Below are positions 10,791-20,932 of a stretch of 56,130 bases of DNA, one piece after another. How positions within the stretch are numbered: the stretch's first letter is position 1; each line of letters starts with the position of its first letter. The notes below the pieces were generated by a model. That model was not told the DNA's origin, did not search any database, and saw nothing but the letters and a program-made list of their open reading frames with translations. Both the position numbers and the translations under genes were made by a program. The DNA comes from an uncultured Verrucomicrobia subdivision 3 bacterium. Its GTDB lineage: Bacteria; Verrucomicrobiota; Verrucomicrobiia; Limisphaerales; UBA11358. Location of the stretch: NCBI GenBank assembly GCA_903827955.1, contig CAIKKJ010000022.1, forward strand, positions 1 through 56,130, read 5' to 3'.

Positions 10791-13700
10791 TTATTTTTTA
10801 AAATTCAGAAAATTTGGCTTGGCCCTAATTTGATTTTGAATCGCCATCCAAATCGCCTCACCCGTCGCGGGCGATGCGAGCGCGACTTCACCTTTTCCCG
10901 CACCAAACGCCGCCACTGCATCGCGAATCGCTTCGCGCACGGAGATGGCGAGCATCAACGGCGGTTCGCCCACGGCTTTGCTGCCGAAGATGGTGTTCAC
11001 TTGCGTCGCGTTCTCCAGCAGCTTCACGTTGAACTCCAGCGGACGGTCGCCGACGGCAGGGATTTTGTAAGTGTCTGGCGAATGCGTCAGCAACACGCCT
11101 TGGTCGTTCCAGATGAGTTCCTCGCAGGTGAGCCAGCCTGCGCCTTGCACATACCCGCCTTCGATCTGTCCGACGTTGATGCCGGGATTGATGGAGTTGC
11201 CGGCATCTTGCAGGATGTCGGCGCGCAAAATGCGCATCATGCCGGTGAAGCCGTCCACTTCGACCTCGGTCACCGCCGCGCCGATGGCGAAATAATGGAA
11301 CGGCTTGCCCTGACCCTTCGCGCGGTCGTAATGGATTTCCGGCGTGCGATAAAATCCCGTGGACGAAAGCCCGATGCGTTGAAAGTAAGCTGACTGCACG
11401 ACCTTGGCGAAGGAAACTTTCACTCCAGGCAACGCGCGGTAAAAAACAAAATCGTCTGCGAAAACTAAATCTTGCTCCGTAGGAGACGACGTGAGGAGTC
11501 TCTGCTTTTCATTTGATTTGAGACTCGTCATCTCGTCTCCTAAAAGTTTCAAAGCAACCGGCTTGAGCCGCTCCCGCAAAATGTCGCACGCATTTTTCAC
11601 CGCCATGCCGTTCAAATCCGTGCCGCAGGACGCCGCCGTCGCGGAAGTGTTCGGCACTTTGTCAGTGCTCGTCGGCATCACGCGAACTTTGTCGAGCGAG
11701 ACACCCAACTCCTTCGCCGCGACCATCGCCATGTTCGTATGAAGACCCTGACCCATCTCCGTGCCGCCATGATTCACCTGCACCGTGCCGTCCTGATAAA
11801 TCAACACCAGCGCGCCGGCTTGATTGAGATGCGTGAGCGTGAAGGAAATGCCGAACTTAACCGGCGTCATCGCAAGGCCGCGCTTGTGCTGTGGATTTTT
11901 GGAATTCCATTGCGCGATTTCCGCTCGGCGTTTTTCAAAAGCGGCATCTTGTTTTAATTCCTGCCACACGCGCTGGATGCGGTTGTCTTCGATTTCCTGA
12001 CCGTAATGCGTCGTGTTCGTCTCGCCCTTGCCGTGATACAGATTGAGTTCGCGCACCGCTTCCGGCGATTTGTCGAGCCGCCGCGCGATGCGATCCAAAA
12101 TTTCCTCGATGACCAGCATCCCTTGCGGCCCGCCGAAACCGCGGAACGCCGTGTTCGATGCCACGTTCGTCTTCATCGCCTGCCCGCTGAACTCGACGTG
12201 CGGAATGTAGTAGGCGTTGTCCAGATGGAACAGCGCGCGGTCGGTGACGGGCATCGAGAGATCGAGCGACCAGCCGCCGTTGGAAAATAATTCCACCTTG
12301 GCCGCGAGCAACCGGCCTTCGGCATCATACCCGACCTTGAAGCGCGCTAGAAACGGGTGCCGCTTGCCGGTGATCATCATGTCGAGGTCGCGGTTCACGC
12401 GCACGCGCACCGGCTGTTGGGTCTTGGCCGCCGCGAGCGCCGCGAACGCCGCGAACGTCGCCGCCTGCGTTTCCTTGCCGCCGAAACCGCCGCCCATGCG
12501 CGGACTTTGCACGACGACGTGATTGCTTGGCACATTCAAAACGTGCGCCACGATGTGCTGCACCTCGCTCGGATGCTGCGTGCTCGACATCACGAACATC
12601 GCGCCATCCTCGCCCGGCTCGGCATACGCGGCCTGCATCTCCAGGTAAAAATGTTCCTGCCCGCCAAAGGAAAATTCGCCTTCCAAAATCTGTGGTGAAC
12701 TTTTCAACGCAACTTGCGCATCGCCGCGCCGGATAAAATTCGGTTCGTAGTGAAAACTGTTTTGCGCGATGGCGTCCTCGATTTTAAGAATCGGCGGCAA
12801 CGGTTCATACTCGATCAAAATTTTCGCAGCGGCATTGCGACATGCTTCCTGTGTTTCGCCGACGACCAGCGCGATAATCTGGCTGTGATAAAAAACTTCC
12901 TTGTCCGCCAACAGCACTTCGTCATGCCGCACCGCGCCGACATCGTTCAAACCCGGCACGTCTTCCGCAAGAAGAACGGCGGCGACACCTGGCATCGTCT
13001 TCGCGGCGGAAGCGTCGCGTTTGAGAATCTTCGCCCGCGCGTGCGGCGCGCAGACCGGCCAGACCTCGAGCATGTGTCGGCGCGCGCCGAAATCATCCGT
13101 GTAGATGGATTCGCCGGTAACGTGCTTGTGCGCGCTTTCGTGGGCAACGGTAGCACCCGCGTCCCGCCGAAAATCTCGTTCAACCAAATTAAGTTTGTCC
13201 GACGAAGGTTCGGGCGCGGCGCCCGAACCGACCCGCGAGACGCGGGTGCTACCATCAGCAAAAAACTTTTCGAGCAAACTCGTGATCAGTCCGCTGCGAT
13301 ATTCCGCCGTGCCGCGCACATCGGAAATGGGTGTGAACTCCGCCCGCAAAATCGGCAGCACGCTTTGAACCGTCTCCACGTTCCAAATTTTGCCGAGCAA
13401 TGCGGCCTCGGTTTTCTTTGCGCGAGAAGGCATCGCCGCTACACCGCCGTAGCCGAGCCGCGCGTGGCGGATGATGTTTTGCGAATCCACATCCACCACG
13501 AACGCGCCCGCCACCGTGCTGATGTCCATCTCGCGACGCTTGGAAACTTTGAACCACACCGCCTTGCGCGTCAGTCCCGCCGCTGAAATGCCGCGCGGGG
13601 TGACGATGGTCTTCAAAATCTCATCAGGACGCAGCGCGGTCTTGCGATACGACAGGAAAAATTCGCCGATGGACAATGTGCGCTCGCCAGACTCCGACGC

Positions 13701-14666
13701 GAGCACGACCTTTGCATCCAGCGCGAGCAAGCATGGCGCGCTGTCGCCGATGGGCGAGGCGGTGACGATGTTGCCGCCCATCGTGGCGCGGTTGCGGATC
13801 TGCCGCGAGCCGAACACGCGCAGCATGTCGTTGAGCATCGGAAATTCCGCGCCTAGCTTGTCCTTGATGACGGTGAGCGTGACCGCGCCGCCGATGCGCC
13901 ACTCGCTCACCGTGGATTTAATCTCCGTCAGTTCCGCGACGGCTTCGGTGGAGATGAGCGTGGAAAACTTTTTGTAACGCTTGGTGATTTCGAGACCGAG
14001 TTCCGTCGCACCGGCGATGAGCTTCGCGTCGGCGTTCGCCTTTTGCAGCCGGAATAATTCCGTCAGTGAAGTTGGACGGAAGAATTTTTCTCCGGCAAAT
14101 TCGTATTCTGCCGCGCCAAGTTTGGCGTCGGATCTTTTCAGGCGCTCGGCAAAAGCATCGTTGCCATTTTTTGCCGCGCGTTCGGCGAAGGCTTCGATGG
14201 CCGCGTCGCGGATCGGGCGGTAGCCGGTGCAGCGGCAGAGATTGCCGGAAAGCTGGTCGTCGAGGTCTTCGTGCGTGTGGATGTCGTCGCGATAGTAGCC
14301 CTCGAACAGCGAGCAGATGAAACCGGGCGTGCAATAGCCGCATTGCGCGCCGTAGCCCTCGGCCATCGCGCGCTGGACGGGATGCGAATTTTTGGAACAG
14401 CCCACACCCTCGACGCTGACGACTTCGCGGCCCGCGAGCAGGCAGACGGGCATGAGGCAACTGTTCACCGCGCGAAAAGAATTTTTTCCATGTGCATCGC
14501 GTTCGACCAGCGCGACGGAGCACGCGCCGCAATCGCCTTCCGCGCAACCTTCCTTCGTGCCGGTGAGTCCAGTGCCGCGCAGAAATTCCAGCAGCGTCGT
14601 GTTCGGCGAAACCGCCTCGACGCGAACCGGCTTGCCGTTCAGGGTGAATTCCAGCGCGTCAGTCAT
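10791..14666 (-). CDS. Xanthine dehydrogenase, single-chain [2Fe-2S]2/FAD/molybdopterin enzyme
   Basis: 1291 residues. It oxidises hypoxanthine to xanthine and urate. Domains in order: a ferredoxin-like [2Fe-2S] cluster (GCAEGDCGACSVAL, about residue 40), a helical second cluster (QCGYCTPGF and NLCRCTGYRPI, about 110-155), an FAD domain (GATELGLEITK, TMGGNIVTASPIGD, about 190-460), and a molybdenum domain with QEHFYLE, GGGFGGKETQ, the active-site arginine in TAFRGFGGP and the catalytic glutamate in KAVGEPPLML. Bacterial XDH is more often split into XdhA and XdhB; here all parts are fused as in eukaryotes. Two palindromic elements are inserted in frame, at about residues 472-506 (FAD-Mo linker) and 1042-1062. 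All key residues survive. It is the first gene of the eight-gene purine operon. XdhC is not in the window. Confidence 0.95.
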   Translation of the reverse strand: MTDALEFTLNGKPVRVEAVSPNTTLLEFLRGTGLTGTKEGCAEGDCGACSVALVERDAHGKNSFRAVNSCLMPVCLLAGREVVSVEGVGCSKNSHPVQRAMAEGYGAQCGYCTPGFICSLFEGYYRDDIHTHEDLDDQLSGNLCRCTGYRPIRDAAIEAFAERAAKNGNDAFAERLKRSDAKLGAAEYEFAGEKFFRPTSLTELFRLQKANADAKLIAGATELGLEITKRYKKFSTLISTEAVAELTEIKSTVSEWRIGGAVTLTVIKDKLGAEFPMLNDMLRVFGSRQIRNRATMGGNIVTASPIGDSAPCLLALDAKVVLASESGERTLSIGEFFLSYRKTALRPDEILKTIVTPRGISAAGLTRKAVWFKVSKRREMDISTVAGAFVVDVDSQNIIRHARLGYGGVAAMPSRAKKTEAALLGKIWNVETVQSVLPILRAEFTPISDVRGTAEYRSGLITSLLEKFFADGSTRVSRVGSGAAPEPSSDKLNLVERDFRRDAGATVAHESAHKHVTGESIYTDDFGARRHMLEVWPVCAPHARAKILKRDASAAKTMPGVAAVLLAEDVPGLNDVGAVRHDEVLLADKEVFYHSQIIALVVGETQEACRNAAAKILIEYEPLPPILKIEDAIAQNSFHYEPNFIRRGDAQVALKSSPQILEGEFSFGGQEHFYLEMQAAYAEPGEDGAMFVMSSTQHPSEVQHIVAHVLNVPSNHVVVQSPRMGGGFGGKETQAATFAAFAALAAAKTQQPVRVRVNRDLDMMITGKRHPFLARFKVGYDAEGRLLAAKVELFSNGGWSLDLSMPVTDRALFHLDNAYYIPHVEFSGQAMKTNVASNTAFRGFGGPQGMLVIEEILDRIARRLDKSPEAVRELNLYHGKGETNTTHYGQEIEDNRIQRVWQELKQDAAFEKRRAEIAQWNSKNPQHKRGLAMTPVKFGISFTLTHLNQAGALVLIYQDGTVQVNHGGTEMGQGLHTNMAMVAAKELGVSLDKVRVMPTSTDKVPNTSATAASCGTDLNGMAVKNACDILRERLKPVALKLLGDEMTSLKSNEKQRLLTSSPTEQDLVFADDFVFYRALPGVKVSFAKVVQSAYFQRIGLSSTGFYRTPEIHYDRAKGQGKPFHYFAIGAAVTEVEVDGFTGMMRILRADILQDAGNSINPGINVGQIEGGYVQGAGWLTCEELIWNDQGVLLTHSPDTYKIPAVGDRPLEFNVKLLENATQVNTIFGSKAVGEPPLMLAISVREAIRDAVAAFGAGKGEVALASPATGEAIWMAIQNQIRAKPNFLNFKK
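11480..11542. repeat. Palindromic element inside the XDH molybdenum domain
   Basis: Arms at 11480-11502 and 11520-11542 (23 bases each, 20 matching as inverted repeats) flank a 17-base AT-rich centre. The 63-base unit equals 21 codons and keeps the frame. It adds a serine/lysine/threonine-rich stretch after KLLGDE that other XDH chains do not need. Confidence 0.8.
13149..13253. repeat. 105-base compound palindrome in the XDH FAD-molybdenum linker
   Basis: Perfect 15-base outer arms, ggtagcacccgcgtc at 13149 and its reverse complement ending at 13253. Inside are a perfect 11-base hairpin with a one-base loop (13207-13229) and a second hairpin acccgcg-aga-cgcgggt (13231-13247). The unit is exactly 35 codons long and translates as linker between the FAD and molybdenum domains. 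Confidence 0.88.
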
Positions 14667-18995: not shown

Positions 18996-19124
18996 TTAGT
19001 TAACTTTCTTCACCGGCACTTCAGGATTCACCTGCGCGATGGGTTTTTCGCCATTCATCGCGAGGATGAGATTTTTCACGGCGCAGGTGGCCTGCCGCAC
19101 CACGTTTTCGTTTTTCATTTTCAT
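18996..19124 (-). pseudogene. 3'-end remnant of a 2-hydroxyacid dehydrogenase gene, copy A
   Basis: A 42-codon frame whose ATG overlaps the DUF2442 stop as ATGA. Its product ends VRQATCAVKNLILAMNGEKP then IAQVNPEVPVKKVN, which looks like the last helix and tail of D-isomer-specific 2-hydroxyacid dehydrogenases (glyoxylate/hydroxypyruvate reductase type: ..NL..ALxGE.P...VNPEV). No catalytic or Rossmann part is present. Bases 19000-19082 are a direct repeat of 19707-19789 with about five differences, mostly at third codon positions. It may still be translated as a small peptide through coupling. Confidence 0.6.
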
Positions 19125-19702: not shown

Positions 19703-19813
19703 TCAGGTAACTTTCTTCACCGGCACTTCGGGATTCACCTGCGCGATGGGCTTCTCGCCGTTCAGCGCGAGGATGAGATTTTTCACGGCAACGCGGCAGC
19801 TGGTTCTTGGCAT
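19703..19813 (-). pseudogene. 3'-end remnant of a 2-hydroxyacid dehydrogenase gene, copy B
   Basis: A 36-codon frame (MPRTSCRVAVKNLILALNGE, ending NPEVPVKKVT). From VKNLILA onward it matches copy A at 18996-19124; the first nine codons do not match. Upstream bases to 20029 show no more of the dehydrogenase. The third-position bias of the differences between copies indicates that both once encoded protein. Confidence 0.55.
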
Positions 19814-20029: not shown

Positions 20030-20174
20030 GGTAGGGACAGCGCGCTGCGCTGCTCCCCGTCGCCGAGCGCAGCGTCAGGCGACGGAAACGAATAGTCAAA
20101 ACGTGCGCCATACCACGTTCGTTCCGCCCTGCGCTGCGCTGCGGGCGGGGACGGCGCGGCGCACCGTCCCTACC
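20030..20174. repeat. 145-base compound palindrome in the 19814-20236 spacer
   Basis: Outer arms 20030-20057 and 20147-20174 start ggtagggac and end gtccctacc, with 22 of 28 positions pairing. Inside are a hairpin with arms ccgtcgcc and ggcgacgg and GC-rich gcgctgcgctgcg runs. The rest of this 423-base gene-free spacer holds a smaller ccgaaca/tgttcgg inverted repeat near 19970-19995, the divergent promoters, and no believable gene. Confidence 0.75.
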
Positions 20175-20236
20175 TATTTTCCGGCCGCCAATTGCATTTG
20201 GCCACCGCGCGCGGATGAGCTATCGTCAGGCCGGTC

Positions 20237-20932
20237 ATGCTCAAATCCATTTTCAAATGGCTGCTGGGATTGTTTCTCCTCGGCGTCGTGCTGCTGGTGA
20301 TTTTTCTGCTGTCGCTGGACACGTTGCTGCGTGTGCTGGTCGTGCATAACATCCGCGCCCAGACCGGCATGGTGGTGGAAATCGGGAAATTTCATCTCGG
20401 CCTGCGCGAGCCGGTGATGACGATCACGGATTTGAAAATTCACAACCCGCCCGGCTTCGGCGGCGCGCCGTTTTTGAACATTCCGGAAATCCACGTGGAA
20501 TACGACCGCGATGCACTGGCGAAAAACCAAATCCACGTCACGCTTCTGCGCTTCAACCTCGGCGAACTCGACATCGTGAAAAACGCGGCGGGGCAGACAA
20601 ATCTGTTCCAGCTCGGCCTCGCATTGCCGGCGAAAAAAACGGTCAGCGCCGAGGCCAGCACCAAGCAGCTTGCGGAATTCAAAAAGCAGACCGGCCTCGA
20701 ATTCAAGGGCATTGATGAGCTGAAGGTTTCCGTCGGCACTTTCAAATACCTCGACCTCGCCGAACCCAAAAACAACCGCGAGCAAAATGTCGGCATCGAA
20801 AACCTGCCCGTAAAAAAAATCACCAGCTTGGCCGACCTGACCGGCTTGAGTCTGATGGTCGGCCTGCGCAGCGGGGATTTTTTCACGACGCTGTTCGGCG
20901 AGAGCCTGCTGCAAGGCGTCAAAGGTTTTTAG
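20237..20932 (+). CDS. AsmA-like membrane-anchored protein of unknown function
   Basis: 231 residues. One N-terminal membrane anchor (about residues 8-35) is followed by a periplasmic beta-rich region. Seen: NIRAQTGMVVEIGKFHLGL, ITDLKIHNPPGFGGAPFLNI and IHVEYDRDAL, the pattern of the short AsmA/DUF748-type proteins linked to envelope biogenesis ("I.d..i.NP.GF....l.i..i.v..d"). No enzyme motif is visible. It is followed 47 bases later by proB, and its own upstream spacer is full of palindromes. The family call is moderate and the function open. Confidence 0.6.
   Translation: MLKSIFKWLLGLFLLGVVLLVIFLLSLDTLLRVLVVHNIRAQTGMVVEIGKFHLGLREPVMTITDLKIHNPPGFGGAPFLNIPEIHVEYDRDALAKNQIHVTLLRFNLGELDIVKNAAGQTNLFQLGLALPAKKTVSAEASTKQLAEFKKQTGLEFKGIDELKVSVGTFKYLDLAEPKNNREQNVGIENLPVKKITSLADLTGLSLMVGLRSGDFFTTLFGESLLQGVKGF

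Follow-up and report, generated by a model that had tools for sequence, protein, structure and literature searches.

Two palindromes lie within a single open reading frame of the window, that is, the whole stretch of 56,130 nucleotides analysed here, and the question raised by this locus is where these palindromes come from and how they came to be part of a gene for a fused XdhA-XdhB xanthine dehydrogenase (XDH). We propose, with a probability of about 0.86, that both units are non-autonomous dimers of GTAG/GGAG REP sequences (REPINs) that were placed by RAYT transposases and now code for linker segments of XDH. The features on which the analysis is based are collected in Table 1.

Two palindromes in a fused xanthine dehydrogenase gene

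In profile searches of the XDH protein, TIGR02963 (XdhA) matched residues 5-470 with 495 bits (cut-off 467) and TIGR02965 (XdhB) matched residues 506-1278 with 1023 bits (cut-off 849.5), while matches in the PDB comprised mammalian XDH and chains A and B of the Rhodobacter capsulatus enzyme (1jro), in which XdhA and XdhB are separate chains, not fused as here. With the XdhA match ending at residue 470 and the XdhB match beginning at 506, the 105-bp unit, which corresponds exactly to codons 472-506 in phase 0, occupies the joint of the fused subunits. The 63-bp unit (11480-11542) begins within codon 1042, at its second base, and the alignment to mammalian XDH breaks near this site (1039 to 1088/1090). 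The site-2 copy has a GTAG foot at 11479, the other foot being degenerate (TTAG). Folding z-scores were -7.8/-7.4 for the 105-bp unit and -6.2/-7.4 for the 63-bp unit, and none of 200 shuffles folded as well.

Table 1. Coordinates of the XDH gene, its palindromic units and related elements
Feature	Position	Strand	Remarks
Fused XdhA-XdhB xanthine dehydrogenase gene	10791..14666	-	One open frame, 1291 codons (1291 aa)
Site 1, REP dimer, family E	13149..13253; GTAG..CTAC = 13150-13252	-	Residues 472-506, XdhA/XdhB joint; translation GSTRVSRVGSGAAPEPSSDKLNLVERDFRRDAGAT
Intact E REP unit, GTAGC-ACCCGCG-TCT-CGCGGGT	13231..13252	-	
Opposite E REP unit	13150..13171	+	Internal deletion, 3 mismatches
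Site 2, REP dimer, family A	11479..11543	-	Mo domain, about residues 1042-1063; translation LGDEMTSLKSNEKQRLLTSSPT
XDH joint-spanning peptide, example			VGSGAAPEPSSDK
GTAG-type inverted-repeat unit outside XDH	20030..20174	.	Completes TAG stop of minus-strand ORF 20174-20914
AlaRS-nested RAYT, window's genome (G000)	G000:C118:3332-5554 (L251:2324-4555)		About residues 459-613 of frame, between REP hairpins
PriA-nested RAYTs	L262:3069-6023, L277, L263, L258, L254, L283		Two RAYT types, one linker, six genomes
Other nested RAYTs	L259, L282, L284 (ClpB); L256, L261 (DnaE); L278 (ThrRS); L253 (DinG-like helicase)		

The original prediction, which placed one palindrome in a linker and the other in the Mo domain of an otherwise intact enzyme, was borne out on these points, including the catalytic residues, as the Fe-S, FAD-loop and Mo-site motifs are all intact. 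Its further claim that both lengths are divisible by three holds for the units as then drawn (105 and 63 bp) but depends on the edges chosen, the biological units from GTAG to CTAC measuring 103 and 65 bp. The open frame argues for translation of both REP stretches, in agreement with the prediction of mobile-type palindromes turned coding. An AlphaFold model of residues 190-1291 based on only 18 sequences was weak (pLDDT 62.7, pTM 0.43); in it the confidence for the site-1 peptide is very low, as a flexible linker would lead one to expect, and the site-2 peptide is mostly helical, which in so weak a model is no proof.

The window's XDH is also mosaic-like, residues 1-480 being nearest to congeners and residues 540-800 nearest to one relative (G110), with the switch near the REP-bearing linker, a pattern that suggests a recombinant history of the gene.

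REP families and the history of the two sites

Sequences were assigned to the GTAG REP superfamily when an unpaired GTAG (or variant) foot stood beside a short-looped stem of 5-13 bp, a form shown by the E unit (Table 1) and by the consensus unit of family A (GTAGC-AGCCGAC-GTGA-GTCGGCT). In each element a GTAG or GGAG foot with a short hairpin is followed, after a spacer, by an inverted copy, the arrangement of a REP dimer. Family A is present in 47 of 49 congeners (0-156 half-sites; no backward-control matches); of 146 relatives, 38 carry family E, with most copies in G032 (36 half-sites) and rare backward-control matches; the E pattern recurs with 0 mismatches in G032, G022, G025, G021, G015, G129 and others. 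The genome-wide count proposed along with the original prediction found both families repeated in relatives but scarce in the window's own genome, where E has two half-sites, both in XDH, and A five in all, and this near absence of other copies counts against our reading. An own-genome BLAST had made the 105-bp unit look like a single-copy oddity, an interpretation dropped after a search of relatives with the REP core.

The usual form of family E is a dimer of about 153 bp with four hairpins, usually intergenic in congeners, of which the window copy has kept the first half, the second being fused by an internal deletion. Copies in other genomes measure mostly 153-158 bp for E (one 116) and 65-94 bp for A, following no multiple-of-three rule. 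E dimers of G032 are mostly intergenic, and the majority of the 20 loci fall outside any long frame; one apparently intragenic copy (L232) was left uncounted, its long ORF reading as a membrane protein plus a spurious upstream extension. Stop-free frames are not enriched in families E and A (2.33 versus 2.33 and 2.17 versus 2.06 open of six), so neither shows a special fitness for translation. Elsewhere in the window, the unit at 20030..20174 occupies a position at a stop codon that is typical for REP, and an 85-bp direct repeat (18998-19082 and 19705-19789, 93% identical) has its copies 707 bp apart.

XDH orthologues were compared from 25 named loci and the genomes of 12 relatives. The same residues in distant relatives would mark both stretches as native protein; distant orthologues have neither insert, their linker (Chthoniobacterales, Myxococcus) being 24-32 aa of unrelated sequence and their site 2 uninterrupted. 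Linkers free of REPs span 24-32 aa and that of the window 39 aa; for site 2 the figures are about 30 and 42 aa, respectively. Given so small a change in linker length, REP DNA has taken over the linker, not merely lengthened it: the native linker is largely gone, replaced by REP DNA. The elements are absent from distant orthologues, as predicted, but are not clean insertions. No exact empty XDH site was found among the orthologues compared, which also weighs against our reading. That the stretches are native linker, palindromic by chance, might be argued from a total length close to that of orthologues, yet is scarcely credible when the palindromes exceed chance in shuffles, exact REP units recur in other genomes and congeners carry different palindromes at the same joint.

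These site-1 inserts share a GTAG/GGAG foot and a small hairpin in inverted pairs and belong to family A in G038 and G031, B in G046, C in G021, D in G001 and G138, and E in the window's genome (G000). Since the palindromes differ and 5-6 changes are needed on the trees, site 1 is a recurrent landing place, and on the sequences compared the XdhA-XdhB linker is a hotspot for five REP families across congeners. Other insert peptides, e.g. RTGGTPVPL, occur in XDH of relatives at L039, L043, L044 (alignment column 500), L048 and L049, and look repeat-derived.

Besides the window's genome, six others hold a homologous palindrome at site 2, one of them (G138) only a same-order relative. The site requires 2-4 changes, its history not being clean on the trees, a further point against our reading. 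Across the seven elements 87.5% of cells pair, and six pairs changed on both sides (none of 500 shuffles reached this; slid controls gave 0-1). This covariation may reflect selection on the palindrome, but the changes match A subtypes seen elsewhere, so conversion among A copies accounts for it too. It also bears on a possible role in mRNA, whereby a stable stem at the XdhA/XdhB boundary would slow the ribosome and let the first domains fold first. We regard such a role as unlikely: the pairing at site 2 maintained through double changes and a coding-strand MFE of -67 kcal/mol across the 105 nt that coincide exactly with the domain joint would fit it, but the corresponding place in relatives holds unrelated REP families or no REP at all, the second half of the window's E copy has decayed, and conversion between repeat copies also accounts for the covariation.

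RAYT transposases, stand-alone and inside host genes

Y1_Tnp/RAYT genes are found in nearly all congeners, many bordered by GTAG/GGAG REPs, and two of them (L114 and L124) score above the REP_Tyr_transpos cut-off (86.7 and 82.7 versus 80); IS200-like Y1 genes with long TIRs at their flanks were set aside as a separate group. For family E, matching RAYTs with the same REPs at their flanks exist in G022 (contig C188), with E units on both sides, and likewise in G025 (C76), where the RAYT is nested in PriA; the G022 gene is therefore a plausible source of mobility for the XDH element. The G001 RAYT (L124) is bordered by REP D, identical at 25/28 positions to the XDH linker insert of G001 and at 26/28 to that of G138. 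No RAYT flanked by family A units was found among the RAYT flanks of congeners, which speaks against our reading for that family. Cutting of single-stranded REP has been reported for the E. coli RAYT (cited in PMC3733652). By analogy with TnpA_REP, family E would be mobilized by transposition, and RAYTs probably spread such repeats in the genus.

This association bears on the comparison with Rickettsia palindromic elements (RPE) drawn by the original prediction, and on a reading under which the units are selfish palindromes, with no known transposase, that enter genes as peptide. The outcome is the same, in-frame palindromes in otherwise intact genes, but RPE-4 and RPE-6 are CGTC-type repeats without a dedicated transposase (PMC3733652), whereas the XDH elements have GTAG/GGAG feet and are tied to RAYTs, which makes a Rickettsia-type origin very improbable.

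RAYT matches in 49 genomes were screened by frame length for nested cases, and 20 RAYTs were identified in frame inside host genes of 15 genomes: AlaRS (seven, at two sites), PriA (six, at one site), ClpB (three), DnaE (two), ThrRS (one) and a DinG-like helicase (one). A further long frame (L257) in G138, which belongs to another family, stands outside these 20. The AlaRS site of the window's genome, in which the frame runs off the contig end shortly past the RAYT, is also used in G021, G027, G004 and G040, and another AlaRS site in G046 and G013; the RAYT inside priA of G022 lies in a single frame of 985 codons. In the nested frames scanned with Pfam, host domains stand on both sides of the RAYT. 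Searches for alaS and priA found no second copy, so that the gene with the RAYT is the sole copy identified; where alaS matches were listed as two or three, they were read as fragments of a single gene interrupted by inserts or contig ends. PriA linkers of congeners are empty (36 aa in the stretch), REP-only or occupied by RAYT plus REP, a series from which the path can be read. At AlaRS site 2, low-complexity repeats (GSTDKPAGS.., VGANPP..) expand in L313 (G017) and L314 (G019) the linker that elsewhere holds RAYTs.

All 20 nested copies match NF047646 (E about 1e-15 or better, several above the 80-bit cut-off) and carry the HUH motif, and a YIxxNP-type motif was detected by regular expression in 18 of the 19 scanned, which identifies them as Y1/HUH transposases with RAYT signatures. 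Their dN/dS values of about 0.03-0.2, rough because synonymous sites are often near saturation, point to strong purifying selection. Phylogenetically they form two clades (support 99/97 and 100/96) that include none of 29 stand-alone RAYTs sampled by search rank; the nested and stand-alone states need two changes, against a shuffled mean of 15.6 (0/500 shuffles), and a single origin of nesting is also compatible with the data (p-AU 0.318). On balance we favour the view that two RAYT lineages have specialised as translated domains in linkers of these single-copy essential proteins (AlaRS, ThrRS, PriA, ClpB, DnaE and the DinG-like helicase), intein-like without splicing. Transposase function would be kept by purifying selection, the host frame would provide expression and protection from loss, the presumed benefit of nesting, and REP dimers shed by these RAYTs would come to rest in frame in further linkers, the XDH linker among them.

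Proposed origin and comparison with known systems

Under the REPIN explanation, RAYT (Y1/HUH) transposases would have placed REPINs as single-stranded hairpins, and the survivors would be copies that brought neither a stop nor a net frameshift into tolerant inter-domain linkers, the surrounding native linker being lost later so that REP DNA came to code for the linker. Site 1 would have been occupied repeatedly by different REP families, and site 2 probably reflects one acquisition in the group, its palindrome kept via paired changes that may have arisen by conversion between copies or by self-correction. Family E is tied to the RAYT lineage in frame inside PriA (G022, G025), which has a relative inside alanyl-tRNA synthetase in the window's own genome. 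The REP peptides are most likely passive spacers, with selection mainly on frame and linker. Mobile hairpins would thus have been repeatedly turned into protein linkers at one position. The persistence of RAYTs in genomes is a long-standing puzzle, and the nested copies suggest that in-frame residence within genes indispensable to the cell can let them persist.

The closest known system was described by Di Nocera et al. (2013, PMC3733652), who reported GTAG REP dimers inside genes, specifying 20-30 aa and most numerous in Opitutus terrae, and the assumption that such cases are little described in this phylum has to be abandoned. These are likewise GTAG hairpins, mostly dimeric or grouped, that lie in frame within host genes of the same phylum, and two Xanthomonas species were reported to carry different REPs at nearly the same position in recB (PMC3733652). 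In contrast to that work, the XDH linker described here holds five REP families across relatives, with the native linker replaced, and whole RAYTs lie in frame in host genes, none being found in that paper. REPINs and REPtrons (TnpA_REP; PMC3116915, PMC8266576) share inverted REP pairs, RAYTs with matching REPs, and HUH and YIxxNP-type motifs, but a subset of the RAYT genes reported here lies inside host coding sequence without stops, not stand-alone. RPEs resemble the XDH elements in that in-frame palindromes become peptide in functional genes, but no sequence relation to them was noted. Inteins are also in-frame mobile sequences in single-copy essential genes (helicases, DNA polymerase, tRNA synthetases); however, a Pfam scan of nine nested ORFs detected no intein or Hint family, nothing suggests splicing, and a nested RAYT would be expected to stay as an inserted domain. 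Unexpectedly long Y1 proteins have been mentioned before, explained as fused genes or faulty annotation and left out (PMC6006769), and in a literature search of incomplete coverage no earlier description of RAYTs nested within essential genes came to light. The XDH elements therefore belong to the already published intragenic REP dimers, with an unusual hotspot, while the nested RAYTs, reached by following the transposase, constitute the new part.
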